The notes below the pieces were generated by a model. The model saw only the letters and a program-made list of their open reading frames with translations, did not search any database and had not been told where the DNA came from. From the NCBI RefSeq assembly GCF_014334135.1, contig NZ_CP060497.1, positions 744,001-808,000 of the forward strand: DNA of 64,000 nt. Reading direction: 5' to 3'. Origin of the DNA: Olivibacter sp. SDN3 (GTDB taxonomy: Bacteria > Bacteroidota > Bacteroidia > Sphingobacteriales > Sphingobacteriaceae). The position numbers were made by a program, and so were the translations under genes. Shown here in pieces: positions 1,440-54,732 of this stretch (position 1 is its first letter; each line of letters starts with the position of its first letter).

Positions 1440-1591
1440 GATTTTTTTTTAATCGCGATTATCTGATTAATTCATTACTTTCTTTTTTCATCAATCTTCC
1501 ATATTCAAAGGCATTCAAGCTTTCCCTAACGGGAAGGTTTGCCACTTAGTCATTATATGCGATAGCCATCTTTATATTAAATCCCTTTTTC

Positions 1592-11300: not shown

Positions 11301-11506
11301 GAGGCATTACCTTAGGCTATACCTTTGACGAGCAGGTCAGCAAAAAGATCGGCATGTCTAACTTGCGCATTTTCGGAACAGCCAATAATCCATTTACGTT
11401 TATGGCCGATAACCGCTTGGCAGATTATGATCCGGAAATGGCTTCAGGAAGAGGTGGCTATCCAGGGATCAAAACCTGGTCGTTCGGTTTAAATGCCCGT
11501 TTCTAA
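8318..11506 (+). CDS. SusC/RagA-family TonB-dependent outer-membrane transporter (second pair)
   Basis: A 1062-residue protein. It has a longer N-terminus than the first SusC copy: a basic start, a hydrophobic stretch (about 12-34) and a likely cleavage after ALAS. A CarboxypepD_reg-like domain occupies about 48-125. A TonB-box-like segment (LDEVVVVAYGTQKK) leads into the plug domain (about 135-260, with YIIDGIPATPQEFASLNPND and LKDASSAALYGSRAANGV). The barrel ends in WSFGLNARF. It would import oligosaccharides with the SusD protein encoded 16 bp downstream. Two LacI-type operators lie upstream. A second, divergent SusC/SusD pair in one locus suggests either uptake of different fragments of one glycan or two substrates. 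Confidence 0.96.
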   Translation: MNGKINKRVMVPWLTSFAIAGTLLTAHQQTALASNMRMHEQLQSTQQTEVEVRGIVSDEQGPLPGLTVSLKSNPKIGVSTDADGSYIIKVPANGTLVFQMLGYQTQEIPVAGNQTISVNMEPDNTNLDEVVVVAYGTQKKANLTGAVATIKNEQLVNRPVTSTQNALQGLTPGVTVLQRPGDVGRADDGTSNNTGGVTVRGRSNLGTPAPMYIIDGIPATPQEFASLNPNDIDNMSILKDASSAALYGSRAANGVIVVTTKRGGGERPTISFNANYGVQLATKLPNYTNSEDYATLYNEAMRNAGRSELFNADEIRMFGDGSDPDLYPNTDWYKEVIRNSAPQSDVNLNISAPGKVTDYYLGLSYLNQSSLIPDKTQDRIVAKLNTTSKLLPDLLTVGTNFSFIKQNFDRQGADMSWTELNRSLPTAVLRQSDGNWGSINAGVANADVAGRNQLRRLREGGSGWDRDNYLQTAANATLTPLKGLSINGLVSLKYTNSNSWSFDAEIAPIPNFITGESMTATRFFPNEMQEYWRKRQELLVQGTIDYERTFGKHYAKATVGASQESNVFRTAFLGRKNFPNNDMTTIGSGSTNPSDISSDDDGQANRTVQEEWAMRSVFGRINYTFADKYLLEGNIRVDHSSRFRPDLREAVFPSFSAGWRVSEEDFMKDIAWLDNLKLRGSWGSLGNQDAVRIGNYFELINTGYAYSFEGNPLDGAWQGLGTNPLALWEKVYMTDIGLDLTLFKGKLDIVADYFVKNTTGILMQVPVLASYGFPSGGIPYVNAAETRNRGIELMVTHNNTIGDDFQYSISANISKINNEIINLGGAQERFNSYWIERVGESVGSIFGYQADGLFIDEADVENHAFQSNATRPGDIKYRDLNGDGIINADDRTIIGNDVPWFNYGFNLAAAYKGFDLNVITYGVANVETYIENEAAYPFFNGAGIKEELKNRWTPENPDPNANFPRLLVSADGQQNYAEGNRSSFWAFNASYFRIRGITLGYTFDEQVSKKIGMSNLRIFGTANNPFTFMADNRLADYDPEMASGRGGYPGIKTWSFGLNARF

Positions 11507-11521
11507 TATTGAATAATATAA

Positions 11522-13192
11522 ATGCATATCATGATGAATACTAGATCTTCAATATATATCCTTACGGCATTAAGCAGCATCCTGCTGTTTCAAGCCTGCA
11601 GTAAAGATTTCTTGGAAAGACCTCCATTAGATCAGGTTTCGCAGGAAACCTTTTGGCAATCAGAAAACGATGTTTACCAAGCCGTTAACGGCGTATACAA
11701 TCAATTACCTGCAGACGCAATCATTTATGACGATGGGGCGTCTGACAATGCCCATGCACAGTATACCTGGGAAAGTTTTGCTACGGAATTTTCTTCAGGC
11801 AATGTAACCACAGCGTTAAGTGGAAGTTGGAACTTTGAAGACATCCGCCGCTGCAATTATTTTCTTGAAAACGCCGATTTAGCGGCCCCCGTGATGGATG
11901 AAACATTGCTCAACCGTTTCAAAGCCGAAGTAGGTTTTATCAGGGCTTTCGCCTATCTGCGGCTCATGAATAAATACGGTGATGTACCGCTAATTACCGA
12001 GACATTGGAATTAGACGATGTCAATGTACCTCGTAATCCCAGGGCGGAAGTTTTCCAATTTATTGTTGATGAGCTACGTGCTATAGCAGATATACTACCC
12101 GAGACCTATGCCGGTGGTCGACCAAATGAGAAAGGTAGAATAACTAAAGGCGCCGCTTTGGCTCTGCTTGCCCGGGCAAACCTTTACGAAGGCCAATGGC
12201 AGGAAGCAGCAGATGCCGCGCAGGAAGTTATGGGACTGGGATATACTTTATTCAGCGTAAGCAGTGAAAGTGCGCCCAACCAACGCGATGATTACAGCAA
12301 CTGGGTAGACTTCAACGGTACGGATGATGAACAAAACTTTAGGCTAGCTCTTCGCAGTTATGAGGGGCTCTTTCATCAGGTAAATGAAGATAACAGTGAA
12401 ATCATACTTGATAGACAACAAATTCCACAGGTTGATGCCAACTTTTTAAACACCTATCTCCTCCCCGGCAATATGGGCGGATGGAGCTCGGTAACACCTA
12501 CCCAAAATTTAGTAGATGCTTATGACAATTACCAGACTGGCGATCCGATCACCCCTGTAAGCCGTGAAGACCGTGCAGCATGGTACAGCAGCAATGATCC
12601 ACGTTTTGCGGATGAATATAAAAACCGTGATCCGCGCTTCTATGCTACCATTATGTTTAATGGCTCACCCTGGAATGCGCTGTCCAATGGGTTCACCTAT
12701 ACCTGGACACCAGGCGCTTCCAATATGACGCAAACGGGTTATAATTTCAGAAAACTGGTGGATCCACGTTTCTATACAGAACAGATTGATAACCATGCCA
12801 ATGTCATCTTAATTCGTTATGCCGAGGTACTGCTTACTTACGCAGAAGCGAAAAACGAAGTAAGTGGGCCAGATGCAAGTATTTATGACGCACTTGATCA
12901 AATACGCGAGCGTGCCGGTATGCCTGCCGTAGATCGTCACACCTATGCTTCGCAGGCAAGTCTCCGTGAATTTATACGTAAGGAACGACGTGTTGAACTG
13001 GCACTTGAAGGACAACGGTTTATGGACATTAGGAGATGGCAGATCGCTCCAGATGTTATGACCAACGTATACGACGTAAGAAACACCTTGGCACAAGCTA
13101 GAAACTGGACGGATAAGCTCTATCTATTACCCGTTCCTCAGAGTCAAATTGACCTCTCTCAAGGTACTTTGGTGCAAAACGCCGGATACTAA
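11522..13192 (+). CDS. SusD/RagB-family glycan-binding lipoprotein (second pair)
   Basis: A 556-residue lipoprotein with the signal ILLFQACSKDF, lipidated at the Cys. SusD N-terminal and RagB C-terminal domains are evident: FLERPPLDQVSQETFW near the start, the helical GFIRAFAYLRLMNKYGDVPLI segment (about 140-160), and the C-terminal RYAEVLLTYAEAKNEV and RRVELALEGQRFMDIRRW motifs diagnostic of SusD. It starts 16 bp after susC2, in the same operon. The start could also be the ATG at 11531 or 11534, since three Met codons occur in the first five. A strong hairpin at 13231-13261 ends the unit. Confidence 0.95.
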   Translation: MHIMMNTRSSIYILTALSSILLFQACSKDFLERPPLDQVSQETFWQSENDVYQAVNGVYNQLPADAIIYDDGASDNAHAQYTWESFATEFSSGNVTTALSGSWNFEDIRRCNYFLENADLAAPVMDETLLNRFKAEVGFIRAFAYLRLMNKYGDVPLITETLELDDVNVPRNPRAEVFQFIVDELRAIADILPETYAGGRPNEKGRITKGAALALLARANLYEGQWQEAADAAQEVMGLGYTLFSVSSESAPNQRDDYSNWVDFNGTDDEQNFRLALRSYEGLFHQVNEDNSEIILDRQQIPQVDANFLNTYLLPGNMGGWSSVTPTQNLVDAYDNYQTGDPITPVSREDRAAWYSSNDPRFADEYKNRDPRFYATIMFNGSPWNALSNGFTYTWTPGASNMTQTGYNFRKLVDPRFYTEQIDNHANVILIRYAEVLLTYAEAKNEVSGPDASIYDALDQIRERAGMPAVDRHTYASQASLREFIRKERRVELALEGQRFMDIRRWQIAPDVMTNVYDVRNTLAQARNWTDKLYLLPVPQSQIDLSQGTLVQNAGY

Positions 13193-39952: not shown

Positions 39953-40529
39953 GATTCTTCTCCATACAAATTTTCAGATTCCGCTTTCCATTCTGAATAT
40001 AGCTTTTCACTTCTTTTAGGCTGTATCCAGTGATATCCACAATCTCTTTATAACATTTTTCATTCAAAAAGAACAGATCAACGCTCTTTTTCTGTCGCTC
40101 CGGAAGTTTTTCTATGCAACGTTCCAGCGCCGAAAGCGCGCCTTCTCTTTCATCTGACTCCTCAGGATGCTTATTTATAGGAAATTCCACAAATTCATCC
40201 AAAGATACGTACTGCATCTTTTTTTCTGATCGTATTTGCATCAAACAATGGTTCCGACTCAATACATACAACCAAGTAACAAAACGCTTGATTTCCTGTT
40301 TGTTTACTTTCACCACCAATTCTTCAAATATCTGCATCACGGCATCCTTACTTCGCTCACTGTCCCGCAGGTAGCGAAAACAGACATAATAAACCATTTC
40401 GGCATGTCTTTCGAACAGTTGTCCCAACACTACCAAATCACCTGTTGCACGATAGCGTTCCAGCAACACATCGTCATCTTCAAGTCCTTTTTTCTTGGAG
40501 TATTTGAACCAGTTCATTTCGTCGTTCAA
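39942..40529 (-). CDS. ECF-type RNA polymerase sigma factor
   Basis: A 195-residue sigma-70 family protein. Region 2 (about 25-100) contains FERHAEMVYYVCFRYLRDSERSKDAVMQIFEEL. Region 4 (about 125-190) contains LPERQKKSVDLFFLNEKCYKEIVDITGYSLKEVKSYIQNGKRNLK, an intact helix-turn-helix, in contrast to the broken sigma gene at 49883-50369. It is divergent from the vWA gene and overlaps the TonB-like membrane gene, suggesting a small envelope regulon of these three genes. Confidence 0.93.
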   Translation of the reverse strand: MNDEMNWFKYSKKKGLEDDDVLLERYRATGDLVVLGQLFERHAEMVYYVCFRYLRDSERSKDAVMQIFEELVVKVNKQEIKRFVTWLYVLSRNHCLMQIRSEKKMQYVSLDEFVEFPINKHPEESDEREGALSALERCIEKLPERQKKSVDLFFLNEKCYKEIVDITGYSLKEVKSYIQNGKRNLKICMEKNREA

Positions 40530-40592
40530 AATAATTTTTTTTTATCACTTATGGAATTTTTATATAGGATGCATCCTTCGCCAAAATTGAAT

Positions 40593-42470
40593 ATGATGAA
40601 GACGAATTTTTTCCTATGGATACTATTGTTTAGCCTAGTTGGCTTTAAACAAAGTGACGGCGATAATCGCACGATAAGCGGCACGGTTTATAGTAAAGAA
40701 GATCAACAGCCCTTAGCTGGCGTTGCTATACACGTGGAAGGTAATAGCAGCGTTCATACGGTAACCGACGAGAAAGGTCATTATGCAATTATGGTCAAGC
40801 CAAAAGCCACTCACTTAATCTTTAAGATGATGGGTTTCAATACACAAAAGATCACACTTACTGCAGCTAACACCATAGATGTATGGTTGGAGCAACACTC
40901 GACGGCATTGAACGAAATTGTCACTTCTGGTACAAGTGTAAGGACACAGGCGTCCTTTAGCCCAGCTCATCATCGCATGCCCATAGCTCCTATGTCCATG
41001 CCTTACCGACCTCTTTATCCTGAACACAGCGAAAGCTACCAAAAGATTTCAGAAAATGGCTTTTTAGATCCCCGCAAGGAGCCTTTATCGACTTTTGCAG
41101 TGGACGTCGATGCAGCTTCCTACAGCAATGTGCGTCGATTGATCAATGGTGGCCAGCTTCCTCCAAAAGATGCTGTACGCATAGAAGAAATGATCAACTA
41201 TTTCCAATACGAGCTTCAAGGCCCCGGTAACAGTGATCCGGTAGCTATCCATACGGAGTTATCAGTGGCTCCCTGGAACCGCCAACATCATTTATTGCGA
41301 ATAGGGCTAAAAGCAAAATCAGTAGATACCAGGCAGCTTCCCCCTTCCCATTTTGTGTTCTTATTGGATGTTTCCGGTTCTATGGTGGGTTACAACAGGC
41401 TACCTTTGGTAAAAAGCTCCATGAAGATGTTAGTCGACCAGTTACGTGAAAAAGACCAGATATCTATTGTCACCTATGCAGGAACCGCCAGTTTAAAGTT
41501 GGAGAAAGCTAATGGAAATCAAAAAATCAAAATTAAGGATGCGATTGACGCATTGGAAGCCGGTGGCGCCACAGCGGGGGGAGCAGGTCTTAAGATGGCC
41601 TATCGTTTAGCCAGGGAGCATTTCATTAAAGGAGGAAATAATAGAATTATTCTGGCTTCTGATGGTGACTTTAATGTCGGTGCTTCAAGCGATGAGGAGA
41701 TGGAAGATCTGGTAAGTGCCGAAAGGCAAAGCGGTGTGAGTCTATCGGTATTTGGTTTCGGCATGGGTAACCTAAAAGACAGTAAAATGGAAATACTGGC
41801 CAATAAGGGCCATGGTAATTACGCTTATATTGATCATATTTCTGAAGCCAGAAAAGCCATGATTACGGAGTTCGGTGCTACCCTCTTCACCGTTGCAAAG
41901 GATGTAAAAATGCAAGTTGAATTTAACCCAGCTAAAGTGCAAGCCTACCGCTTAATCGGTTACGAAAACCGTTTACTGGAAAAAGAAGACTTCAATAATG
42001 ACCAGAAGTTAGGCGGCGACATGGGGGTTGGCCATACGGTTACGGCGCTATATGAAATTGTTCCCGTAGGAGTAAAGGGAGATTTCCCGGGTCATGTTGA
42101 TCCGCTTAAATACCAGGATGACAACGTCACTCCGATTTTAAAAGGCTCTTCAGAGCTTGCCACCGTTAAATTCAGATATAAAAAACCTGATGAAGAAAAA
42201 AGCCAGTTGAAACAGGTTGTTATAGCAGACCGACCAACAGCACTTCCAAAAACCAGTGATGATTTTCGTTTCACCAGTGCCGTGGCAGAGCTGGGCATGC
42301 TGTTACGTAACTCAGCATATAAGCAACAAGCTGATTACAATAAATTAATAACACGTGCCAAAGAGGCGAAAGGTATAGATGAAGAAGGGTATCGGGCAGC
42401 ATTTATCCAAATGGCGGAAGATGCAAAGATGTTAGCAAAAGAAAACGACATCGCCTTCCGAGAAGAATAA
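40593..42470 (+). CDS. vWA domain protein with CarboxypepD_reg N-terminus (YfbK-like)
   Basis: A 625-residue protein from the ATG at 40593. The frame is open to 40236, but that overlaps the divergent sigma gene; 40551 and 40596 are other possible starts. A signal peptide is followed by a CarboxypepD_reg-like domain (about 25-105). A YfbK-type N-terminal segment contains FAVDVDAASYSNVRRLI. The vWA domain has the MIDAS motif DVSGSM near residue 258, with FGFGMGNLKDSKME further on. A C-terminal DUF3520-like domain follows. Such proteins are common in Bacteroidota beside ECF sigma factors; their role is unknown. A 125-bp piece (about codons 478-519) is duplicated at 43869-43993. Confidence 0.9.
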   Translation: MMKTNFFLWILLFSLVGFKQSDGDNRTISGTVYSKEDQQPLAGVAIHVEGNSSVHTVTDEKGHYAIMVKPKATHLIFKMMGFNTQKITLTAANTIDVWLEQHSTALNEIVTSGTSVRTQASFSPAHHRMPIAPMSMPYRPLYPEHSESYQKISENGFLDPRKEPLSTFAVDVDAASYSNVRRLINGGQLPPKDAVRIEEMINYFQYELQGPGNSDPVAIHTELSVAPWNRQHHLLRIGLKAKSVDTRQLPPSHFVFLLDVSGSMVGYNRLPLVKSSMKMLVDQLREKDQISIVTYAGTASLKLEKANGNQKIKIKDAIDALEAGGATAGGAGLKMAYRLAREHFIKGGNNRIILASDGDFNVGASSDEEMEDLVSAERQSGVSLSVFGFGMGNLKDSKMEILANKGHGNYAYIDHISEARKAMITEFGATLFTVAKDVKMQVEFNPAKVQAYRLIGYENRLLEKEDFNNDQKLGGDMGVGHTVTALYEIVPVGVKGDFPGHVDPLKYQDDNVTPILKGSSELATVKFRYKKPDEEKSQLKQVVIADRPTALPKTSDDFRFTSAVAELGMLLRNSAYKQQADYNKLITRAKEAKGIDEEGYRAAFIQMAEDAKMLAKENDIAFREE

Positions 42471-42735: not shown

Positions 42736-43839
42736 ATGGCAAAATACATCTATCAACATAAAGACTGGGCAAACTTTACCTGGCAGGACCGCGTAATCAA
42801 TGCCGTGTTTGGGGAAGTTCGTCATCTCCAAGGAAAAATTGCAGGGCAGATGAGTTCTTTGGGGTTTTCTATGCAGGAAGAAGCCAATCTAACTACACTT
42901 ACATTGGATATTGTGAAATCTTCTGAAATAGAAGGTGAACAGCTAAATTATGACCAAGTACGTTCTTCTATAGCAAGGCGCTTGGGTTTGGATATAGGAG
43001 GTTTAGTGCCAACCGATAGAAATGTAGAAGGTGTGGTGGAAATGATTTTGGACGCAACTCAAAATTATTTGCTACCATTGACGGAAGACAGATTGTTCGG
43101 GTGGCATTCGGCTTTGTTTCCCACAGGGCGGAGCGGAATGTATAAAATTGAAGTTGGACGTTATCGCGGAGGAGAAATGCAGATCGTTTCGGGAGCCATG
43201 GGCAAAGAAAAAGTCCATTACGAAGCAGTACCCGTTGAATTGGTCAAGGAAGAAATGGACAGATTTCTCGATTGGTTCAACAGTAACCTGAAAATGGACC
43301 CGGTACTAAAAGCGGCTATTGCTCATTTTTGGTTTATCATAGTTCATCCTTTTGATGATGGAAATGGAAGGATAGCAAGGGCAATTACAGATTTACTGCT
43401 TGCCCGCGCGGATAAGAGCCCGGAACGTTTTTATAGCATGTCCAGTCAGATACTGGTAGAACGGAAAAGGTATTACGAAGTACTCCAAAAAGTTCAACAT
43501 AGCCACGGAGATATTACTGAGTGGTTAGAATGGTTTCTATATTGCCTAAAAAATGCCCTGCACGAAACTGAAAAGACATTAAGTAAAGTGGTATATAAAG
43601 CGGAGTTCTGGAAACTCCACGAGCATACATCATTAAATGAAAGACAGCGCTTGATGTTGAACAAACTATTAGATGGATTTGACGGGAAACTAAAGTCGTC
43701 GAAATGGGCTAAAATAGCCAAATGCTCACCAGATACGGCGCTAAGAGATATAAAAGACCTGATGGAAAAGGGAATTTTAAGGCTGGAAGATCAAGGTGGG
43801 CGAAGTACGAATTACGAATTGGTAGAACTACCCAAGTGA
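42736..43839 (+). CDS. Fic-family AMP transferase, class II (N-terminal inhibitory motif)
   Basis: A 367-residue protein. The core Fic motif HPFDDGNGR (residues 204-212) is complete, including the catalytic His and the phosphate-binding GNGR. The N-terminal region carries the inhibitory motif S62-S-E-I-E66-G67, matching (S/T)xxxE(G/N). Glu66 would block ATP until released, which defines class II. The C-terminal part (about 300-367) looks like a winged helix (WAKIAKCSPDTALRDIKDLMEKGIL), common in Fic proteins that bind DNA. There is no antitoxin-like neighbour. Upstream palindromes suggest self-regulation. It lies between the vWA gene and a duplicated fragment of that gene, so it may have been inserted there. 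Confidence 0.93.
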   Translation: MAKYIYQHKDWANFTWQDRVINAVFGEVRHLQGKIAGQMSSLGFSMQEEANLTTLTLDIVKSSEIEGEQLNYDQVRSSIARRLGLDIGGLVPTDRNVEGVVEMILDATQNYLLPLTEDRLFGWHSALFPTGRSGMYKIEVGRYRGGEMQIVSGAMGKEKVHYEAVPVELVKEEMDRFLDWFNSNLKMDPVLKAAIAHFWFIIVHPFDDGNGRIARAITDLLLARADKSPERFYSMSSQILVERKRYYEVLQKVQHSHGDITEWLEWFLYCLKNALHETEKTLSKVVYKAEFWKLHEHTSLNERQRLMLNKLLDGFDGKLKSSKWAKIAKCSPDTALRDIKDLMEKGILRLEDQGGRSTNYELVELPK

Positions 43840-43868: not shown

Positions 43869-43993
43869 GGTTGGCCATACGGTTACGGCGCTATATGAAA
43901 TTGTTCCCGTAGGAGTAAAGGGGAATTTCCCGGGTCATGTTGATCCGCTTAAATACCAGGATGACAACGTCACTCCGATTTTAAAAGGCTCTT
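43869..43993 (+). repeat. 125-bp duplicated fragment of the vWA gene
   Basis: This stretch matches 42026-42150 inside the vWA gene at 123 of 125 positions by eye. The only differences are GAG to GGA-type changes at AAGGGAGATTT versus AAGGGGAATTT. The reading frame is kept across the copy but ends shortly after it. Flanking sequences on both sides are unrelated. It lies 29 bp after the fic stop. Confidence 0.93.
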
Positions 43994-45031: not shown

Positions 45032-45967
45032 TCAGCTTAAGGCAGGAAGAACCTTCTCCAGTTGAGCCCTATAAGGCTCATATTGAGCGGGTAATTTCAA
45101 ACCTTTTCCCAATTCGTCCACCGTCTCGTCATTGGCAAAGCCCGGGTTATCCGTAGCTATTTCAAAAAGCACACCTCCTGGCTCCCTAAAATAGAGCGAA
45201 TAGAAATAGTTTCTATCGATCTTTTCGGTGATCTGTAAACCAGCTTCCAAAACTTTCTGACGATAGTGCATCAAAATCTCTTCATTTTCTACCCGGAAGG
45301 CCACATGATGTACCGATCCTCCTGCAACATGACCAACTCCCTCTCCAGGAGCTTCTACAATGTCCACTATATGGGCATTTTCAACGGTATCAGTAACGAA
45401 ACGGTAGCGGTTTACATGCTCGTCCAGCAGATGATATCCTAAAATGTTAGTAAGCACCTCTGCCGTAGCGTCTTTTTTATTTGTAGTAATGGTAATATGG
45501 TGAAAACCTCTCGTTGCAAAAGCTTCGCCAACCTCCTCCGTTATCCACGGTTTACGGTTATCCGCTATCTTTGGCACGGTGAGCTCAAACTTCAACCCAT
45601 CCGGATCAAGGAAAGTCAGGTATTGCTCGCCAAATTTCTCTGCTACTTTATTGTAGGTAACGTTATGCTCTTCAAAACGCTTTATCCAAAAATCCAAGCT
45701 TCCTTCAGGTACTGCGTAACCGATCTCTGTAACTTGTCGCGATCCTCTCCGTCCACTTGAAATGCCCTGCCAAGGAAAAAAAGTTAATATCGTACCGGGT
45801 GTTCCAACTTCGTCACCAAAATAAAAATGATAGGTTTCCGGATCATCAAAATTTACCGTTTTTTTTACGAGCCTTAGCCCAAGAACACCTGTATAAAAAT
45901 CATAATTTTTCTTGGCATCGCCAGCTATCGCAGTGATATGATGAATACCTTTTATTTTTTTTTCCAT
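45032..45967 (-). CDS. Ring-cleaving dioxygenase (glyoxalase superfamily, MhqO-like)
   Basis: A 311-residue protein with two glyoxalase/vicinal-oxygen-chelate modules. The first (about 1-130) begins KGIHHITAIAGDAKKNYDFYTGVLGLRLVKKTVNFDD. The second (about 150-290) has FHHITITTNKKDATAEVLTNILGYHLL and GSVHHVAFRVENEE, with Glu in FREPGGVLFEIATD. The His-His-Glu metal set for Fe(II) or Mn(II) is present. It is likely to act on hydroquinones or other aromatic diols. It is the first gene of a two-gene unit with the MhqD-like esterase. Confidence 0.92.
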   Translation of the reverse strand: MEKKIKGIHHITAIAGDAKKNYDFYTGVLGLRLVKKTVNFDDPETYHFYFGDEVGTPGTILTFFPWQGISSGRRGSRQVTEIGYAVPEGSLDFWIKRFEEHNVTYNKVAEKFGEQYLTFLDPDGLKFELTVPKIADNRKPWITEEVGEAFATRGFHHITITTNKKDATAEVLTNILGYHLLDEHVNRYRFVTDTVENAHIVDIVEAPGEGVGHVAGGSVHHVAFRVENEEILMHYRQKVLEAGLQITEKIDRNYFYSLYFREPGGVLFEIATDNPGFANDETVDELGKGLKLPAQYEPYRAQLEKVLPALS

Positions 45968-46109
45968 GATTTAATCCTTTCATTAATATGATACAAAAAT
46001 CGGCATTCTTTTGTTCGTAAAACTTAACCTAGGTTAAGAAATAGGGCCGTTCAACAAAGAAGCGACCCAAAATTTGTGTCGCTTCAACCAATCAAAACCA
46101 GACAACCTA

Positions 46110-47570
46110 CTACGTCTTTGCCTTTTCGTATAAAACTTCGCTATCCGCTTTCTCTCCCGAGCTCTCCAACACGATAACTTTTGGTTGCGAAGGTTTTTCT
46201 TCCAAATGAATAAGATATTCATTACCGTCGGTTTTGCTACGGTGTGCTTCTTCGGGCTCATACGTATTACCACTATCCGTCAAATCGTACACTTTTGCTA
46301 TTCCTGTACCTGGGGCAATCTTGATTTTTAAAGCTCCTGATATGGGTACATTAAACACCACTAAATAGTATTTACCCGTTTTTCTACTTTTTGTGATGTA
46401 CCCCCAATCCTGCTTTTCCAATCCCGCATATTCACAATCATAAATAGCTTCATGGTTCACTTTCATCCACTCGCCAATTTCTTTGGCCAATTTTGTTTCT
46501 TCTGGACGAATAGCCCCTTGGCCATCGGGACCAAAATTTAACACAAAGTTGCCATCGAGTGCTACCGCACGTGTCATCATTTCGATGAGCTCGGTGCTTG
46601 TTTTTACATGACCGCGCCAGTCCGAATGGTAACCCCATTGGTTCTCGGGCACTGTCATTACGCAGTCCCAATCATTACCATGTACTTCTTCTATCCTCGT
46701 TGGTAACTTACGCTCCCAACCCTGTTCGTAATCGCCTATTAAATCACCATTGCTATCAAAGTGACGTCTGCCATTTTCATCTGCACGGAAGCGGCTGCCA
46801 ATGATCAAACCCGGACGCATAGCACGGAGCTCCGCTTCCAGACTATCGGTAAACTCCGCTTCTGCAATCCATGCTTTATCCCACGTGCCGTCAAACCACA
46901 AGCCCTTAGTGGTGGGATATGTAGTTAATAATTCTTTGAGCTGGTTGGCTGTAAAGTCCTTAAACGCTTCATAAGATTGTTTTTCATCCCCACTCTCCGG
47001 AACACCAGATCTGTACCCATTGTGGTTCCAATCAATAATGGAAAAATAGAGGTAAACATCGATGCCTACCGCATCATAAGCATCCACAAGTTCTTTTAAT
47101 GCATCGTTTTTATAGGGCGTATTTGCAATGGTATAATCGGTATACTTACTCGGCCATATACAAAAGCCGTCGTGGTGTTTAGTAGTGATGATAACATACC
47201 GTGCGCCCATATCCTTTGCCTGTGCGGCCCAAGCTTTCGCATCAAAATGCTTTGGATCGAACTGCTTATAAAGGTTATCGTAGTCTTCATTGGGCATCTC
47301 ATTCCAGGAACGGATCCACTCGGCAGCTCCAGGGTAGTACTTGCCGTTCCAATGCCCCCCGGGAATAGCGTAGAGCCCCCAATGGATAAATTGTCCTAAT
47401 CCGTAATTGCGCCAAGTCTCCATCTGAGCATCGGTACGTTTTCCTAAGCGATGGGCACCGTGTTTTAAACTTACGGATGATCGTTGTGAACTCGCCCCAG
47501 GAAATTGAGCTATCGCTTCTTGCAACATGCCTAAGCAAAGGAATAGTATTAAGTAAGTTTGTTTTTTCAT
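46110..47570 (-). CDS. GH29 alpha-L-fucosidase
   Basis: A 486-residue protein from the ATG at 47570 (MKKQTYLILF, signal peptide cleaved near AIAQ). An in-frame upstream start at 47597 gives a worse signal. The GH29 barrel is clear: YGLGQFIHWGLYAIPGGHW, ARYVIITTKHHDGFCIWPSK and VYLYFSIIDWNH. The nucleophile is D227 in GLWFDGTWD. The region after about 385 is a beta domain. It is a retaining exo-alpha-fucosidase of the broad (subfamily A-like) type by overall look. It follows GH20, which suggests degradation of fucosylated, HexNAc-bearing glycans. Confidence 0.95.
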   Translation of the reverse strand: MKKQTYLILFLCLGMLQEAIAQFPGASSQRSSVSLKHGAHRLGKRTDAQMETWRNYGLGQFIHWGLYAIPGGHWNGKYYPGAAEWIRSWNEMPNEDYDNLYKQFDPKHFDAKAWAAQAKDMGARYVIITTKHHDGFCIWPSKYTDYTIANTPYKNDALKELVDAYDAVGIDVYLYFSIIDWNHNGYRSGVPESGDEKQSYEAFKDFTANQLKELLTTYPTTKGLWFDGTWDKAWIAEAEFTDSLEAELRAMRPGLIIGSRFRADENGRRHFDSNGDLIGDYEQGWERKLPTRIEEVHGNDWDCVMTVPENQWGYHSDWRGHVKTSTELIEMMTRAVALDGNFVLNFGPDGQGAIRPEETKLAKEIGEWMKVNHEAIYDCEYAGLEKQDWGYITKSRKTGKYYLVVFNVPISGALKIKIAPGTGIAKVYDLTDSGNTYEPEEAHRSKTDGNEYLIHLEEKPSQPKVIVLESSGEKADSEVLYEKAKT

Positions 47571-47735
47571 TTGTTTATGTAGTGAAGAAGCAAACACTTC
47601 TATTTTTCAGTTAGTCTTATTTAATTCAACTGCTGTTCCACCCTCTAGCTTCACGCCGGGGTATGGAAACTTTATATTATACAGAATTATACAGATCGCT
47701 TCATTACCTTCCGCTTTAGATGACGAAATAGCGCG

Positions 47736-49358
47736 TTAATTTTCTTCTGCATTTAAGTCTTTCTTATCCTTCTTAAAATATACCGGTTCCGGGATTTCGT
47801 TCGGATGAAAAGGGTTATAAAAGTAGACGTCATGCTGTCGATAAAGCTTGAGATGGCGTTTCAATCGCTCCTCAAATTGTGCATAGCTTTTGACAGCGTC
47901 AGCACTCCAAGCGGATTCGGCCAGTGCGGCTAATCTGGGAAATAGCAGATAATCTACACGCTGGTTGTTGGTCACCGTTTCCGTCCACAGGTTGGCCTGC
48001 AAACCCAATACTTGTTGTCGCTGTTTATCGTCTTTCACCCAGGTGTCGGCATCAAAATGATAGACATCCTGCAAAGGGCTGTATAAGCCTCCCCATTTCC
48101 GCCCGGCTTGATGGCTACTGTCCTGCACAAAGTCAAAGTAGAAGGGTAATCTCGGACAAAGAACAGTCTCGTAACCTTTCTTCAGCGACTGATAGAGCTG
48201 TTGTGGTTTATCGTGCCTCCACCAAAAAATAACGGTTTTGTCTTTAGGAAGATTAATATCGGCCATTTCATCCCAGACCAATAATTTTGCATGCATTTGA
48301 TACACTGAATCCGCCATACGTTCCATGAAATAATTTTCAACCGCCTTCAGGTCTTTTAGCCGGTGATCATGCATCAACCGCTTCACACCTGCGTTTTGCA
48401 GCCAACTATCATTACCGAAACTGACTTCATCACCACCCAAATGCAACATATTGGAAGGGAACAACGCATTGGCTTCCCGCAGTATATTGGTTAAGTAGGT
48501 GTACGTTTCCGGGTTGCCGGGATCGAAAGTAAATTCCGGATACTGTTCACTCCCTCCCCCGCTATATGCCGGATAGGCACGATTAGCGGCCGTCGCATGT
48601 CCAGGCATATCAATTTCGGGAATAATTTCAATATTGCGCTTCGATGCGTAGTCAACGATCTCACTTATTTCTTGCTGCGTGTAAAATGCCGCTGGTTTAG
48701 TTTTGTCATGCTGATCCCCCACGCCGCCTACCAATGCCAGCCTAGGATATTTTTTAATCTCTAATCGCCAGGCAGGTTCATCCGTTAAATGCCAATGTAA
48801 TTTGTTCAACTTATAAAAAGCCATCCAATCAATGATCGATAGTAATTTTTGCTTGCCGATAAAATAGCGTGATTCATCCAACATTAAGCCCCGCCATCCA
48901 TATCGCGGTTCATCCTTTATTGTCCAACATGGCACAGGCAGAACGGCCTCGGCCATACTTTCGACCTGGCTAATGAGCTGTACTAAACTGGAAGCCCCAT
49001 TAAATACACCCGCCGCACTGCCTCCGCTGATGATGATGCCATCTTGGGCAATATTCAATTCATAAGCCTCTTCTGCTAGCTGCTCATCAAGTTTCAAACG
49101 AATGGAAGATTGTTGATCCAAGCTAGATTTTGCCATCAAAGGAAAACCCTTTAAACGCAACAGTTCCTGTTGAAGATATCGGCCTACATTTTTAAGGTGT
49201 TCTTCATCAACAAACAAAGCCGTTTGCCTGTTGAGCTTAAACACATCCTCAGTGTACCCGGCATGCATTGGAGCGGGAATGAGCGGACATTGTTGTTGCG
49301 CATGGCACAGTGAAATCGTCAAAAGGACTAATCCGAATTTTATAAAAAGCTTCATCAT
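47736..49358 (-). CDS. GH20 beta-N-acetylhexosaminidase
   Basis: A 540-residue protein from the ATG at 49358. The adjacent ATG at 49355 is equally possible; an upstream start at 49379 is less likely. Signal peptide cleavage is near CHAQQQ. It has a GH20b-like N-terminal domain (about 25-145), then the TIM barrel (about 150-500) with RGLMLDESRYF, LHWHLTDEPAWR and IIPEIDMPGHATAA. The catalytic D310-E311 pair lies in HLGGDEVSFG, where the Asp assists the substrate N-acetyl group. It removes terminal beta-GlcNAc or beta-GalNAc. It is upstream of GH29 in the same direction and downstream of a GH2 remnant. Confidence 0.95.
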   Translation of the reverse strand: MMKLFIKFGLVLLTISLCHAQQQCPLIPAPMHAGYTEDVFKLNRQTALFVDEEHLKNVGRYLQQELLRLKGFPLMAKSSLDQQSSIRLKLDEQLAEEAYELNIAQDGIIISGGSAAGVFNGASSLVQLISQVESMAEAVLPVPCWTIKDEPRYGWRGLMLDESRYFIGKQKLLSIIDWMAFYKLNKLHWHLTDEPAWRLEIKKYPRLALVGGVGDQHDKTKPAAFYTQQEISEIVDYASKRNIEIIPEIDMPGHATAANRAYPAYSGGGSEQYPEFTFDPGNPETYTYLTNILREANALFPSNMLHLGGDEVSFGNDSWLQNAGVKRLMHDHRLKDLKAVENYFMERMADSVYQMHAKLLVWDEMADINLPKDKTVIFWWRHDKPQQLYQSLKKGYETVLCPRLPFYFDFVQDSSHQAGRKWGGLYSPLQDVYHFDADTWVKDDKQRQQVLGLQANLWTETVTNNQRVDYLLFPRLAALAESAWSADAVKSYAQFEERLKRHLKLYRQHDVYFYNPFHPNEIPEPVYFKKDKKDLNAEEN

Positions 49359-49390
49359 ATCATTAATTTGTCTCCACAAGTATAAGTTTT

Positions 49391-49878
49391 TTAGTTAACG
49401 AGCTCCCACTCCATTTCATCCTGTAAGACCTTCCCATCAGCCTCTCCTTTAGCCTGTATGGTATTTATCCCTTTCTGCAAAGCAACCCCCTCAAATACCC
49501 AGTGTTTATCATTTACCCCCTTTGTCCCGGAAACTTCCCTACCATTTACATTCAGCGACACATTATTCAAATTGGAAAACACCTGTACTTTAGTCTGTGC
49601 CCTTGTTCGTTTATTATCTCTACGATTGGCGATATAAATTATCGGTTCGGGGTTCCAGTTGGCTTTATACCAATAAAAGCTGTCTTTCTTTTGTTTCCTG
49701 TCAAAGCTAACCAAACCCTTTAAATTCCGGGCATTAACTCCTCCTCGGTTCCATATTCCGTTAACATTCCCTTATGGGAAGGGTATTTCTCTGCTAATCC
49801 ACTGGCCCACTCTTCCAAGTCGCCAATCTTCCCCTCATACCATCCATAGTAACGGTTCATCCCTTGAACATCTGCCCC
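49391..49878 (-). pseudogene. Remnant of a GH2 beta-galactosidase
   Basis: Read on the minus strand, one frame gives GADVQGMNRYYGWYEGKI and MLTEYG (the catalytic-loop context of GH2) and then stops at ELMPGI. Another frame resumes at NRGGVNARNLKGLVSFDRK and continues through FYWYKANWNPEPIIYI to the normal C-terminal beta domain ending ELVN. So the gene lacks its 5' two thirds, has an internal deletion after the nucleophile motif EYG, and is frameshifted. The best open part is 49391-49714. It is next to GH20, consistent with a former beta-gal/beta-HexNAc/fucosidase set. Confidence 0.85.
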
Positions 49879-49882
49879 CAAG

Positions 49883-50369
49883 AGAAATATTCAACTGATT
49901 GGCTATCTCTTTATGGCTTAGATAATGTACTCAACACAAAAATTTCACGCATACGCTTGGGCAAAGCATCCATTCCACCGTCAAGTTGTTGCTGGGCCTG
50001 CTTTCCCCTGATGAGAAAGTCTGCCTGTTCCTGATACATATTCAAAAAGCCTTGTAAAGAATTCAAGTATGTTCTGGCATGTTCTTCTTTGCCCAACAGA
50101 TCAAAAACACGGTTTCGAATGGCCGTATATAAATAAGCCGACAGGTTTTGAGGGGAAAAGTTGTTCTGCTGTACCTTAGACCACATTACCGAAAACACAT
50201 CCTGCACAACATCCTTTGCTTTCTCTTTATCCCTTAACTTGCTGTATGCGTGCTGGTAAAGCAAACGGTTATAGCGCTTGAAGATTACTTCAAACGCATC
50301 ATTGTCACCATTTATCAGTCTGCTTACCAAGGTGGCATCCGATAATTTAGTTAGTTCTTCCGCTACCAT
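49883..50369 (-). pseudogene. ECF sigma factor, frameshifted and truncated in region 4
   Basis: The open frame from 50369 reads as a FecI-like sigma factor: region 2 (FKRYNRLLYQHAYSKLRDKE, AKDVVQDVFSVMW) and the start of region 4 (LPKRMREIFVLS). It then runs into a stop at 49911. In a shifted frame the missing helix-turn-helix appears directly: LSHKEIANQLNIS (49921-49883). The shift is best explained by a small deletion between FVLST and LSHKE. Right after NIS the text changes to the GH2 remnant, so the 3' end is gone. Normal homologues are about 190 residues. It is probably non-functional for -35 recognition. Confidence 0.85.
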
Positions 50370-50709
50370 TCATTATTCATCTATGGATTTTTTATACCCA
50401 AAGTCCTATCTGTCGCTTAAAAACCCCCAACCTATATTGGTATCAGTTTAATTGGCGTTATTGGTTAACGATCAATGTCAGAAAAGAAATTCTATTATGA
50501 CAAACCTTGGTTCAACGCAATCGATTGTTTATTTTACGAAAACGATGTAGTTGCTCAAAAAAAAAAGTGCCTTCTCTTTACATTACATCACATATGTCAC
50601 CTCAATTTTCAACAAACAGCCTTATACGCTGATATATAGCTATTTAATATTTTTATTATTTAAATTAAAATTATATTTTTGGAAAACCATAAACTACGAT
50701 CAGCAAAAA
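50370..50709. other. Gene-free stretch between the sigma remnant and the small unknown gene
   Basis: 340 bp, very AT-rich in its right half (50640-50700). It holds one LacI-type operator (50516-50529) and a TATTTTTG sequence near 50690 that could be a -7 promoter element for the downstream gene. I saw no further coding sequence. Confidence 0.5.
50516..50529. promoter_or_regulatory. Putative LacI-family operator upstream of the broken sigma locus
   Basis: CGCAATCGATTGTT shares the core CGCAATCGATTG with site A at 8118. It lies 147 bp upstream of the sigma remnant and 181 bp upstream of the unknown plus-strand gene. Confidence 0.5.
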
Positions 50710-51144
50710 ATGGAACAGGTAACACAACAGCAAGTAATTGCTTTTTTAAAGCAACGTCAAAGACAACTGTCAGAAGAACTAAGAAGTATTGAAATGACAA
50801 TTAATTCCATCCTGGGCGGCCAGTCCGTAAGCTCCCCCAGTTACGGATCAGGGACTTTTGGACGGGAAGAAGATTTTCCAAGAAGAAAAAAAGTTATCAA
50901 AGCGCTTGTTCCTCAAGAAGAATTCAATCCGAATAGTAAGTTAGACCAAAAAATAAGTTATGCACTTACTCAAATAGGTAGCGGCTATAAAGACGATATT
51001 CTTGCCGTTTTAAATAAAGCTCAACCAGAGGCTGATCCATATAAAGTAGAAAAGGCCGTAGCGGTTAGACTCTCTTACTTATTAAAGAATGAATTTATAG
51101 ATGGTGTAAAACACGGTAGAAGTTATAAATATAGCCTGAAATAA
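50710..51144 (+). CDS. Small protein of unknown function, possible C-terminal winged helix
   Basis: A 144-residue protein from the ATG at 50710 (MEQVTQQQV); the frame is open further upstream into AT-rich sequence with no good start. The N-terminal third (about 1-40) is a charged helix likely to form a coiled coil (QQQVIAFLKQRQRQLSEEL). A Ser/Gly-rich linker follows (about 43-60). The C-terminal half (about 78-144) has helices plus EKAVAVRLSYLLKNEFIDGV and HGRSYKYSLK, which read like a winged-helix or HARE/HB1-type fold. No family recognised. The 3' end overlaps a terminator stem. Confidence 0.7.
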   Translation: MEQVTQQQVIAFLKQRQRQLSEELRSIEMTINSILGGQSVSSPSYGSGTFGREEDFPRRKKVIKALVPQEEFNPNSKLDQKISYALTQIGSGYKDDILAVLNKAQPEADPYKVEKAVAVRLSYLLKNEFIDGVKHGRSYKYSLK

Positions 51145-51157
51145 TCAGGCTATATTT
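51127..51157. terminator. Bidirectional intrinsic terminator overlapping the stop codon of the unknown gene
   Basis: A 13-bp perfect stem (AAATATAGCCTGA / TCAGGCTATATTT) with a 5-nt loop lies between convergent genes ending at 51144 (+) and 51156 (-). T-rich sequence follows on both strands. Confidence 0.85.
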
Positions 51158-51815
51158 ATCTTTTCTTTGCTTTTTTCTGCTTAATAGCTTCCCTATAATA
51201 TAAGTCAAGTGTCTGTTTCAATGTTCGAACAATTCGTTCCCGGTCTTTCGCTGAATTTATGTTCAGCTCGCAAAAGGTTGTCCCTACTGTTTGAGAATGT
51301 AATATCAGGTAATAAATACCCGCAACATCAATGGCTATTTTAGCTCTTAGATCCAGACCTGTCTCCGCATACAATTTATCAGCATACTTAAAAATATGCC
51401 TTCCAAGCTCCTCTCGAAGACGTACCATATTACGCATGATCTTATCACCGCTGATCTCCAATAAGGTAATTTGCTGAAGCTCTTTACTGTTGAAAATCTC
51501 TTGAAACTGATTCACCAGCAGATTTTCCACAATATCTTTTGCATAGCTCTTATCCTGCTTAAGTTCGTTTTCAATAATATCGTCAGATACGCTTACATAG
51601 TAATCCTTTTCTCTAATATAGGTTTCAATCAAGGTATTTACATCACCAAAATACCTATAAATCAACTTTTTATCCAGGCCAGCCACAGCGGCAATCTTAT
51701 TAACTCCCAAAGCCGTATAACCATGTGTTTGAAGAACCTTTCCAACAGCAGCTATCAGTTTTAGTTTTGTCCGTTCTTTGTTCCTTATAGGGCCCTGAGG
51801 TATTTTCCTTGTCAT
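51156..51815 (-). CDS. TetR/AcrR-family transcriptional regulator
   Basis: A 219-residue protein. The N-terminal helix-turn-helix (about 15-65) contains GYTALGVNKIAAVAGLDKKLIYRYFGDV, a standard TetR DNA-binding domain. The C-terminal helical part (about 70-200) would bind a ligand and dimerise. The tail is very basic (KQKKAKKR). It lies 59 bp downstream of the outer-membrane protein gene and is probably co-transcribed with it. A palindrome at 54733-54748 upstream of that operon is a candidate operator. Confidence 0.92.
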   Translation of the reverse strand: MTRKIPQGPIRNKERTKLKLIAAVGKVLQTHGYTALGVNKIAAVAGLDKKLIYRYFGDVNTLIETYIREKDYYVSVSDDIIENELKQDKSYAKDIVENLLVNQFQEIFNSKELQQITLLEISGDKIMRNMVRLREELGRHIFKYADKLYAETGLDLRAKIAIDVAGIYYLILHSQTVGTTFCELNINSAKDRERIVRTLKQTLDLYYREAIKQKKAKKR

Positions 51816-51874
51816 ACTACTTATTCCTCTCCTGGTGAAATATTCTTTTTAATACAAATTCAAAAGCAAAATGT

Positions 51875-54610
51875 TCAGCGGCCAAACTTTCGTAAGTTAT
51901 AGGTAAAACTCAACAAGAAGTACTGCCGTAAAATGTTGGACTGCTCATCTTCTATGTAGCGTTCCGTAACTTGACGACTCACCTGAACATTACTATTCAG
52001 CAAATCAAAGGCCGAAAGTGTTATCTCGGCTTCCTCTCTTTTAAAGAGTTTTTTGCCGATGGATGCATTCCACAAAAAGAAACGCTGGTCGAACCCCTCC
52101 GCCATTCCGGTATTGTAACGGTAATTTAAACTGGATGCGATACGAATACCTTTCCAAAAAATGTAAGTGACGTCATTACGAATGGTTTGATTATAATAAT
52201 TATTATTTAATCGCTGATTATTACTATTATTAACCATGCTATAATTTCCATTATAGGTAACGCTAAAAATAATCTTCCTGCTGATTTTGCTATTAATTCC
52301 GATACGCTGGTTGATACCTTGATTGTAGGTATACGTTAACACGTTGTTTAACAGCCCCACATCACGACTGTGATGTAAATCCGTCCCCAGATTTAACGTA
52401 ACCTTCAGCGCATCCAAAGGGATACCGAAAGAAATATTTCCTCGAAGGTTGTAATAACCGTTCACATTTTCAGGACGTGTAAATTGCGCTCCCTTTCCCA
52501 ACAAGACGTTGTCGGCAACTAATGTATCGGCTGTTGCAATAAAGGTTGAGTTTACAATTCGGTTTTGTGTTAACGCCCCGGTTATACTCGCCGAAAAGTT
52601 TGCCCCAGAGACTCTGTTAACGCTATTGTAATGGAGATTAACCTGATGACGAAACTCCTGCTTCAAATCAGGATTCCCCCCCGTAATATTGAGTGGATTC
52701 TGATTGTTTATCACGTCCTGCAATTGCAGCACATTAGGCGGGTTTGTCCCCGTATTATAATTGAGTCTTAAACGTCTATCCTGTGAAAAGCGATAAGTAA
52801 AATTAGCATTGGGCAAATAGTTAGTAAAGCGGTGATGAGAACGAATAATTTCCGGAAAAATCCTATTATTGATCATATCTGCTTGCTGGTAATCCAAACC
52901 CACATCTACTAGAAAGCTTTCTTTAGAGAACTGATAATTCAGTCCCGTCCCATAAAAACGAAAATCATTCCGAAACTCATTTGATAACTCTTGGTTTAAC
53001 AGTTCGTACTGGCCAGTCTCTTCTAAAAAATCATACATTTTTCTATCAGAGTAGCTGTTGTTCGTACGACCATTAACGTTGGCCATCATCCGGGAATGCG
53101 CTCCGAGGGGTTCTGTGTACGTTAAACGCCCATTCCATGATTGGCTATTCGAACGACTATCATTCAAATTATTAACGGTATCAGTACGATTTACGGAATC
53201 ATCTTCATAGAAAACGTTATTGGAAAATGCATATGCTTCATTATTATTGCTGTTGCTATTACCTTGCAAATGCAGGGTAATCGAGCGCCCTTTATCATTT
53301 AACCTGAGGCCATAATCCAATGTCCCGCCAATAGTAAAAGCACTATTTTCCCCATTATTTTGCCGCGACGAATGGTTTATCAACTCCTGAGCATTCCCCA
53401 AAGTAGATGTTGTGTTAGTGTTATCAGTAACGGCACTGTTGAAATGTATATTCGGACTGAAGGTGAGCCGTTGCGTAGAATCTTTTTTGTACTCTAATCG
53501 TATATTAGCCACATGTCCCCGGTTCTTACGGTTGGTCTGTTGAGCGGAAACATTGAACTGGTTAGCATCTTCCCCTATTAAAACCTCTCTATTTGACGTA
53601 CGCTGTAACTCGTTTTCAGAATTCTCGAAACTATAATTAACATTAAATTGCACATCCTCCCACCAAGTATTATTATAGTTTACCGCGATCCGATGTTGCG
53701 TTGCAATACCGCCACCTCCACCACCTCCCCGACCTCTTCCACCGGCTCCAATCAATTCGCTTGAAGAAAAATTTCCCTGATTGATGTTATTCGATACCAT
53801 ATTGGCACTTATCCTTCTATCGCCGCTGAACATATTTACAAATCCACCTGTATTATACCGTTCCTCACTTCCGCCCGCACCAGCCATCCTTCCAAAATAC
53901 CCCTGTCTTTTATCCGGTTTGGTCACGATATTGATCACCTTACGCCTATTACCATCGTCAAAGCCTGTTAACTTCGATTGCTCACTTTTATCGTCAATAA
54001 GTTCTATTTTATCAATAACGTCGGCAGGCAGAGTTTTCAAGGCTACCGCTGGGTCCGAACTGAAGAACTCCTTTCCATCAACAATGATTCGCTGTACGTC
54101 TTCGCCCTGGGCCTTCACTTTACCGTCTGCATCAATTTCAACTCCAGGAATTTGCGAAACCAACGCATCTGCATCAGCATAAGGTTCTGTACTAAATGCA
54201 CCAGCATCAAACACTGTTGTATCGCCTTTTATGATAACGGGTTGTGGTTTTACAACAATTTCCACGGAATCCAAAAGGGTAAAATCTGCCTGTAAGGGTA
54301 TTAAGAGTTTCTGCGCTTGGCGATCGATGTTGACTAGCCTGTTAACCACTTTATATCCTAAAAAGCTCACTAGCAAACGGTAATTTCCTCGCTGTAATTG
54401 ACTAAATGTAAACTCCCCTTCTTCACCCGTGCTTATTTGGCGCACAAGAGAATCACGAACGTTATAAAGACTAAGCCTGGCACCTACTAATCCAACGCTA
54501 TCGATTTGATCAAGCACTTTACCCTTCAAATCGTGTTGCGCATAAACGGGTTTAAAAAAAAGACCTAAGCCAAAAATCAATAAGAAACATAAAAGTATCT
54601 GACGCATCAA
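51875..54610 (-). CDS. Outer-membrane beta-barrel protein (OMP_b-brl_3 / TonB receptor-like)
   Basis: A 911-residue protein with a signal peptide cleaved near VYAQHD. A CarboxypepD_reg-like domain (about 28-105) and a plug-like domain (about 135-235, with DADALVSQIPGVEIDADGKV and LPADVIDKIELID) lead into a barrel ending LLSFTYNLRKFGR. Unlike SusC, no SusD partner is present. One loop (about 287-306) is almost pure Gly/Arg (AGGRGRGGGGGGG), unusual for a barrel. It is the first gene of a unit with the TetR regulator. The ligand is unknown; such proteins are typically of unassigned role in Bacteroidota. Confidence 0.9.
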   Translation of the reverse strand: MMRQILLCFLLIFGLGLFFKPVYAQHDLKGKVLDQIDSVGLVGARLSLYNVRDSLVRQISTGEEGEFTFSQLQRGNYRLLVSFLGYKVVNRLVNIDRQAQKLLIPLQADFTLLDSVEIVVKPQPVIIKGDTTVFDAGAFSTEPYADADALVSQIPGVEIDADGKVKAQGEDVQRIIVDGKEFFSSDPAVALKTLPADVIDKIELIDDKSEQSKLTGFDDGNRRKVINIVTKPDKRQGYFGRMAGAGGSEERYNTGGFVNMFSGDRRISANMVSNNINQGNFSSSELIGAGGRGRGGGGGGGIATQHRIAVNYNNTWWEDVQFNVNYSFENSENELQRTSNREVLIGEDANQFNVSAQQTNRKNRGHVANIRLEYKKDSTQRLTFSPNIHFNSAVTDNTNTTSTLGNAQELINHSSRQNNGENSAFTIGGTLDYGLRLNDKGRSITLHLQGNSNSNNNEAYAFSNNVFYEDDSVNRTDTVNNLNDSRSNSQSWNGRLTYTEPLGAHSRMMANVNGRTNNSYSDRKMYDFLEETGQYELLNQELSNEFRNDFRFYGTGLNYQFSKESFLVDVGLDYQQADMINNRIFPEIIRSHHRFTNYLPNANFTYRFSQDRRLRLNYNTGTNPPNVLQLQDVINNQNPLNITGGNPDLKQEFRHQVNLHYNSVNRVSGANFSASITGALTQNRIVNSTFIATADTLVADNVLLGKGAQFTRPENVNGYYNLRGNISFGIPLDALKVTLNLGTDLHHSRDVGLLNNVLTYTYNQGINQRIGINSKISRKIIFSVTYNGNYSMVNNSNNQRLNNNYYNQTIRNDVTYIFWKGIRIASSLNYRYNTGMAEGFDQRFFLWNASIGKKLFKREEAEITLSAFDLLNSNVQVSRQVTERYIEDEQSNILRQYFLLSFTYNLRKFGR

Positions 54611-54732
54611 TAATAATTTAGGGGGCCTGTCGCTTATTTAAATGTAAACTGTTTGCTGTTTTAGTAAAAGGTAAGATATAAAATCTCTGATAAAGTTTAA
54701 AAAGCAACGGGTTTGTTACTTCATGGTGATAT

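Follow-up and report, generated by a model that had tools for sequence, protein, structure and literature searches.

A deletion scar joining a sigma factor gene to a GH2 gene in a probable decayed polysaccharide utilization locus of Olivibacter sp. SDN3

Genes at the locus

The window, i.e. the whole stretch of DNA analysed here, covers 64,000 nucleotides of Olivibacter sp. SDN3 (G000:C1:744001-808000), a genome present as a single contig of 6.12 Mb that is 99.99% complete with a contamination of 0.58. On its minus strand the window carries, in this order, a remnant of an extracytoplasmic function (ECF) sigma factor gene, a remnant of a glycoside hydrolase family 2 (GH2) gene, a GH20 gene and a GH29 gene, as read from the translations and Pfam. 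The locus is best read as a deletion scar in a decayed polysaccharide utilization locus (PUL), the result of recent, multi-step decay. It is of an ordinary kind, with unusually readable alternative scars in relatives. The following features were assigned:

49883..50369, minus strand: remnant of an ECF sigma-70 factor gene (Bacteroidetes FecI-like, TIGR02985-like), ending after ...LSHKEIANQLNIS; Sigma70_r2 match.
49922..49928, minus strand: sigma gene frameshift, where the 12 nt of relatives are reduced to 7 (net change -5 nt); aligned against 14 sigma relatives.
49882..49883, minus strand: deletion scar where the sigma text passes into GH2 at residue ~456; three-frame translation and tblastn with an intact GH2.
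49744..49881, minus strand: GH2 middle fragment, residues 456-501 of the O. sitiensis GH2; 67% identity, E 9e-17 in the own-genome search.
49750..49753, minus strand: second GH2 deletion scar, ~187-193 nt gone, 3-4 nt microhomology; comparison with two intact GH2 genes.
49391..49756, minus strand: GH2 C-terminal fragment, residues 562-681, frame open to its own stop; 73% identity, E 3e-58 in the own-genome search.
47736..49358, minus strand: GH20 gene (beta-N-acetylhexosaminidase family), intact, with a signal-peptide-like start by eye; PF00728 and PF02838, 66-67% identity to three congeners.
46110..47570, minus strand: GH29 gene (alpha-L-fucosidase family), intact; PF01120 over residues 49-374, 80-81% identity to O. 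domesticus and O. jilunii.

The sigma and GH2 remnants

The region 49390-50369 was translated in the three frames of the minus strand. It reads as sigma text, out-of-frame LSHKEIANQLNIS, then GADVQGMNRYYGWYEG, and lastly the GH2 C-terminus in a further frame. The residues NIS of the sigma text end at 49883 and GH2-like text begins at 49881; the sigma gene breaks off inside region 4 with GH2 residue 456 directly next. The two genes were thus joined by a deletion, and the scar at ~49882/49883 lies inside the interval (about 49876-49883) in which an earlier note on this DNA had placed a direct switch from sigma to GH2. In addition the sigma gene carries a separate frameshift and the GH2 gene a second short deletion. 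All three lesions fall within about 180 nt, and two fragments retain open frames of 107 and 152 amino acids. Plasmid records queried with the junction gave no match.

In the sigma open reading frame (ORF) Pfam finds sigma region 2 and not region 4, so that the two do not occur in one frame, and the score against TIGR02985 is 80.5 bits, under the cut-off of 126.4. The frameshift lies between the LS and LSHKEIA-type motifs, which are separated by four residues in all 14 aligned relatives and by 7 nt in the window.

The intact GH2 of O. sitiensis, 681 amino acids long, served as reference. Only residues 456-501 and 562-681 remain in the window (tblastn), and the set of N-terminal sugar-binding, sandwich and TIM-barrel domains is not retained; most of the gene is gone, as had been claimed. 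No copy of residues 1-455 was found anywhere in the genome, where the other matches are paralogues of 24-33% identity, and the missing part is therefore lost rather than moved. Relocation or inversion was ruled out since no other own-genome match exceeds 33% identity. The second deletion removed residues 502-561, i.e. ~193 nt in O. sitiensis numbering or 187 in that of the sister-genus genome G022, at a shared TGG(A). Differences between the C-terminal piece and the O. sitiensis gene amount to 31/14/75 at the three codon positions over 120 codons, compared with 36/26/76 for two intact genes. As this pattern has the shape seen in intact genes, the divergence arose mostly under constraint and the breakage is recent.

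The intact hydrolases

GH20 and GH29 are intact, as first described: both have full Pfam domains and are conserved in congeners. The GH20 protein covers positions 1-347 of the 348 in PF00728, and G308, G309 and the conserved D-E pair (D310 and E311) are unchanged across four orthologues, while GH29 covers positions 25-345 of the 345 in PF01120 (Alpha_L_fucos). The dN of GH20 to the G022 outgroup is 0.310 for the window, 0.306 and 0.312 for O. domesticus and O. jilunii and 0.279 for O. sitiensis. Since the window value matches those of the O. domesticus and O. jilunii genes, GH20 shows nothing, as far as this comparison resolves, to suggest that selection has been relaxed; dS was saturated and not estimable in every pair computed, so no dN/dS is given. 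Upstream of GH20 there is a single weak TAnnnTTG match at -26, which we did not use as a promoter. A second GH29 at this site was considered and rejected: the nearest copy in the genome (72% identical to the O. sitiensis gene) is ~80 kb away, with no hydrolase, SusC/SusD or sigma gene labelled beside it.

Search for FecR, SusC and SusD

The interval 45901-54700 was searched in six frames with 7 FecR, 14 SusD and 10 SusC seeds at a threshold of E 0.01. Neither FecR nor SusD gave a match at E <=0.01 in this interval, and the sole SusC-seed match (E 0.009) lies inside the gene of an outer-membrane protein (OMP). The statement that anti-sigma factor, SusC and SusD are missing here was thereby borne out. 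The window's own SusC/SusD pairs, at 1-4576 and 8318-13192, are ~36 kb away. As for the usual marks of a PUL, co-located glycoside hydrolases are present (GH20, GH29 and the GH2 remnant), and an adjacent SusC/SusD pair is not. There is no linked regulator: the sigma gene is broken, no FecR occurs in the interval searched and no ORF like a hybrid two-component system (HTCS) regulator is labelled in the window. A TetR gene, at most a candidate for such a regulator, stands near the locus.

The earlier note took the scar as direct evidence for removal of FecR, SusC and SusD. This is not supported: the scar retains no part of these genes, and the congeners O. jilunii and O. domesticus likewise have no SusC/SusD upstream at this site. 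What the deletion did destroy is the sigma C-terminus together with two thirds of GH2.

The same site in relatives

Four congeners were compared, namely O. sitiensis (G003), O. domesticus (G001), O. jilunii (G002) and G004, together with G022 of the sister genus. Two genes flanking the cluster in the window also flank it in O. domesticus and O. jilunii (synteny); here and below, glyoxalase and esterase are names given by eye, without a family search:

51875..54610, minus strand: outer-membrane beta-barrel protein without a SusD partner, left flank of the hydrolase cluster; PF14905.
45032..45967, minus strand: glyoxalase-like gene, right flank; 83-85% identity.

Between the sigma remnant and the OMP gene, at 50551-51815, the window has a small gene without a Pfam match (paralogues elsewhere up to 69%) and the TetR gene (paralogues up to 49%).

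In O. jilunii the site reads OMP-GH20-GH29-glyoxalase-esterase, and in G004 OMP-glyoxalase-esterase, with neither GH20 nor GH29 between. In O. domesticus the order is OMP-[M60 tail]-GH29-GH20-GH29-glyoxalase-esterase, then sigma-FecR-SusC-SusD on the same strand, the sigma gene of this set being ~4 kb past GH20 in the downstream direction. O. sitiensis has GH2-GH29-GH20-GH29-GH2-like on a 9.7-kb contig, apart from the glyoxalase-esterase pair, and only 274 nt precede its GH2. The first 153 nt of that contig were considered as a transposase end; having no Pfam match and no copy in the other loci fetched, they are not claimed as such.

In other members of the window's GH20 clade the loss of the front end has left different scars. 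The M60 tail in O. domesticus is a 137-amino-acid ORF corresponding to positions 156-275 of the 275 in Peptidase_M60 (Pfam), and it is 52-54% identical to residues 317-456 of the 456-residue M60 proteins in loci L090 and L095. In these two loci the M60 gene (confirmed by Pfam for L090) stands between SusC/SusD, with one ORF between, and GH29-GH20-GH29. In G022 the intact GH2 is preceded by pieces of a duplicated GH29, a SusD-like C-terminus and a coding-like piece resembling an NHL-type repeat (by eye only). Pfam gives the SusD-like piece weak support, with 19.2 bits (E 0.001) where the cut-off is 23.1; with composition correction off the piece aligns at the extreme C-terminus of several SusD-labelled ORFs (37-50% over 24-30 residues).

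We also observed that L082:9353-10430 of G022 holds two fragments sharing 87% DNA identity with the GH29 gene close by, and that one of these fragments runs in frame into the SusD-like C-terminus.

A GH20 tree was made from 41 rows after excluding identical sequences, those with <400 aligned residues and those of <44% identity. The window groups with O. domesticus and O. jilunii (96/86), then with O. sitiensis (95/85) and then with G022 (99/93). The next branch, Joostella, has SusC/SusD upstream.

An intact syntenic locus, which the earlier note had proposed to look for, was not found at this site in the four congeners; intact layouts occur elsewhere (four of 22 GH2 loci and one metagenome-assembled genome, MAG, described below). 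That note had also held that relatives with an intact sigma gene and no SusC/SusD nearby would speak against its reading; O. jilunii and O. domesticus come close, with no SusC/SusD upstream, but both also have no sigma gene there.

Gene layouts across the family

We compared 22 GH2 loci from 75 genomes with a strong match, and 38 GH20 loci from 89 genomes. Gene labels were assigned by BLAST against our own seeds, mostly without a Pfam check, and the upstream limit was 12 kb. For HTCS only one seed protein was used, and genes given this label at low identity may therefore encode kinases or regulators of another kind.

Same-strand upstream SusC and SusD were found within the limit in 6 of the 22 GH2 loci, four of which (in G392, G329, G149 and G386) have sigma and FecR too; the scripted count was 3/22, raised to 4/22 by adding L284, whose sigma gene lies just past 12 kb. 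The order is sigma-FecR-SusC-SusD-GH29-GH2 in G392, G329 and G149, and likewise in G386, where three ORFs on the same strand separate SusD from GH29. All six genes of the G392 locus (L286) were confirmed by Pfam. A Leadbetterella MAG (L155) has SusC-SusD-GH2-GH20, its SusD confirmed by Pfam. Among the 38 GH20 loci, 19 have SusC and SusD upstream, two have sigma and FecR, and eight have an HTCS-like label within the limit.

SusC/SusD upstream is absent from 16 of the 22 GH2 loci, which is an upper figure, and from 19 of the 38 GH20 loci; hydrolases without them upstream are not unusual. Three of the 16 have SusC and SusD downstream on the other strand, two have only SusD there and one has SusC downstream. 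The upstream sequence is short in two of the 16 (L036, 0.3 kb; L285, 8.3 kb) and in four of the 19 (L032, 7.8 kb; L034, 1.8 kb; L036, 3.7 kb; L089, 2.3 kb), the next 19.9 kb upstream of L034 being read separately.

Seven GH20 loci (L090, L092, L093, L095, L239, L243 and L246) have SusC/SusD upstream together with this kind of GH29. Counting fetched extensions, and with the sequence of L243 ending early, an HTCS-like regulator and not FecI/FecR stands beside six of the seven. FecI/FecR control of such loci is a real but less common arrangement. The layout sigma-FecR-SusC-SusD-hydrolases, previously called typical, exists in four of 22 GH2 loci.

Origin of the junction

Two readings of the scar deserve weighing. 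We lean towards a degraded PUL in which sigma and hydrolases were originally one unit, sigma-FecR-SusC-SusD-...-GH2-GH20-GH29. This is supported because sigma-linked GH2 loci exist, because nine of the 11 nearest sigma relatives precede FecR, SusC and SusD, and because relatives bear front-end scars. The 11 sigma loci are the top of a sigma search over 399 genomes of the family, in which the closest relative is 46% identical; one of the nine has two ORFs between. Of the remaining two, L139 has FecR and SusC labelled with the next gene unlabelled, and L143 has neither.

In the ancestor an ECF sigma gene would have had GH2, GH20 and GH29 downstream on the same strand, most probably within the single unit given above, and FecR, SusC and SusD would have lain in the lost stretch (~9 kb if the layout was like L286). 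The second GH2 deletion lies at the 3-4 nt microhomology, as replication slippage or end-joining would produce. Transcription of GH20 and GH29 would now start from a different promoter, the original one having been lost, and the two enzymes could still be useful as periplasmic or secreted exo-glycosidases trimming N-acetylhexosamine (HexNAc) and fucose from oligosaccharides that arrive otherwise.

Several findings weigh against one original unit. The window sigma is 38, 33, 33 and 21% identical to the four PUL sigmas and up to 46% to others, and the sigma tree does not resolve its placement, for which reason assignment by tree was dropped. The four sigma-linked loci have GH29, not GH20, in the position between SusD and GH2. 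Neither FecR nor SusD has left a fragment near the scar, and the junction is known from the assembly of one genome alone. Upstream SusC/SusD was seen in none of the four nearest GH20 relatives, of which O. sitiensis shows just 274 nt before its GH2; SusC/SusD may hence have been lost before, or separately from, this deletion. The front end may have disappeared in a single early event, with the scars coming from continuing erosion, or in several events.

A less probable but quite possible account is that the scar fuses two units: a GH2-GH20-GH29 cluster already without SusC/SusD, under an HTCS or other regulator, and a separate FecI-type sigma unit upstream. The absence of upstream SusC/SusD throughout the window's GH20 clade suits it. 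So does the O. domesticus scar, which matches a PUL type with an HTCS-like regulator alongside (L090, L095, extensions L229 and L230); an HTCS of this kind was confirmed by Pfam in L093. The four congeners have no sigma orthologue (best 43%), and this sigma may stem from another unit. The sigma gene, the TetR gene and the small gene, which in the window separate the OMP gene from the hydrolases, are absent from this place in O. domesticus, O. jilunii and G004, and O. domesticus has its separate sigma-FecR-SusC-SusD set nearby. Later genes in six of the 11 sigma loci are redoxin, PKD, DUF, glucose-dehydrogenase and GH5-like (L146), not GH2, GH20 or GH29, and the window's order, with GH20 next to GH2, is not that of the sigma-linked loci. 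However, sigma and GH2 do belong to one unit at four family loci, and strand and order in the window fit one unit.

That an assembly or sequencing error made the junction and the frameshifts is very unlikely: the junction is indeed seen in one assembly only, but this is a single, nearly complete contig with three separate lesions in ~180 nt, GH2 residues 1-455 are gone genome-wide, and congeners show other losses at the same place. A functional fusion or regulated frameshift gene is hardly credible, for despite the two open fragments the sigma gene is cut within region 4, which is also out of frame, GH2 has neither its N-terminal domains nor most of its barrel, and reading through needs three frames.

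A wider reading, which we put forward as doubtful, is that the Olivibacter lineage and a sister genus lost the uptake and control genes from one kind of locus in several independent events, with GH20/GH29 kept by purifying selection and the enzymes freed for another role. If so, the different break points (within sigma/GH2, M60 or SusD, or immediately ahead of GH20) would mark a convergent route of 'PUL beheading' to stand-alone enzymes, which might for instance trim oligosaccharides imported by other SusC/SusD pairs.

Comparison with known systems

PULs are lost and gained, and this is usually read from presence and absence. Related genomes with different scars of one kind of locus make the order and timing of the loss of transport, control and enzymes testable. 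Literature searches for PUL remnants, one of them swamped by unrelated medical words, found nothing on point; this does not show that remnants are unreported.

The layout of L286 has matching gene kinds in the order that the scar would need. It differs from the window in that its sigma is 33% identical to the window's and its GH20-like gene (35%) lies upstream of sigma, not beside GH2. The O. domesticus locus (L032/L149) shares the site beside the same OMP gene, has kept GH20-GH29 and has the front of its cluster cut; unlike the window, its break is in M60 rather than in sigma/GH2, a second GH29 is kept and the sigma-FecR-SusC-SusD set is found farther downstream.

The mucin O-glycoprotein PUL BT4240-50 of Bacteroides thetaiotaomicron combines a predicted ECF sigma and anti-sigma factor, SusC, SusD, an M60-like O-glycopeptidase and GH2 (PMC11992087). 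Genes of these kinds also occur together in the loci of the Olivibacter family, and the hydrolases of relatives are adjoined by M60 and SusD-like scars. Unlike BT4240-50, the window keeps pieces only of sigma and GH2, with GH20 and GH29 surviving and no M60, SusC, SusD or anti-sigma factor.

The proposed substrate set of beta-Gal/beta-HexNAc/alpha-Fuc is reasonable by family, except that beta-galactose is not established: the best model for the intact O. sitiensis GH2 orthologue is the beta-glucuronidase NF050095 (627 bits, below the cut-off of 950), not a beta-galactosidase. Fucosylated glycoproteins are one possible substrate because of the M60 scar in O. domesticus and the mix of ECF, SusC/SusD, M60 and GH2 in BT4240-50. 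The locus is also a caution for orphan GH20/GH29 genes, whose substrates should not be deduced from neighbours that have been lost.

Other observations

Another GH20-like gene, at G000:C1:1375886-1376781, is split over two overlapping frames and is a possible further pseudogene. At G000:C1:4226034-4228406 GH29-like matches occur in separate pieces, two with an internal TGA, possibly a further decayed fucosidase region.

Within the window a 125-bp stretch at 43869-43993 is 98.4% identical to 42026-42150, which lies inside the gene 40236-42470 (von Willebrand-type by eye). This copy follows a Fic-domain gene (42736-43839). In O. jilunii no Fic gene separates the von Willebrand-type gene from the esterase, so the Fic gene may have arrived with a partial duplication.

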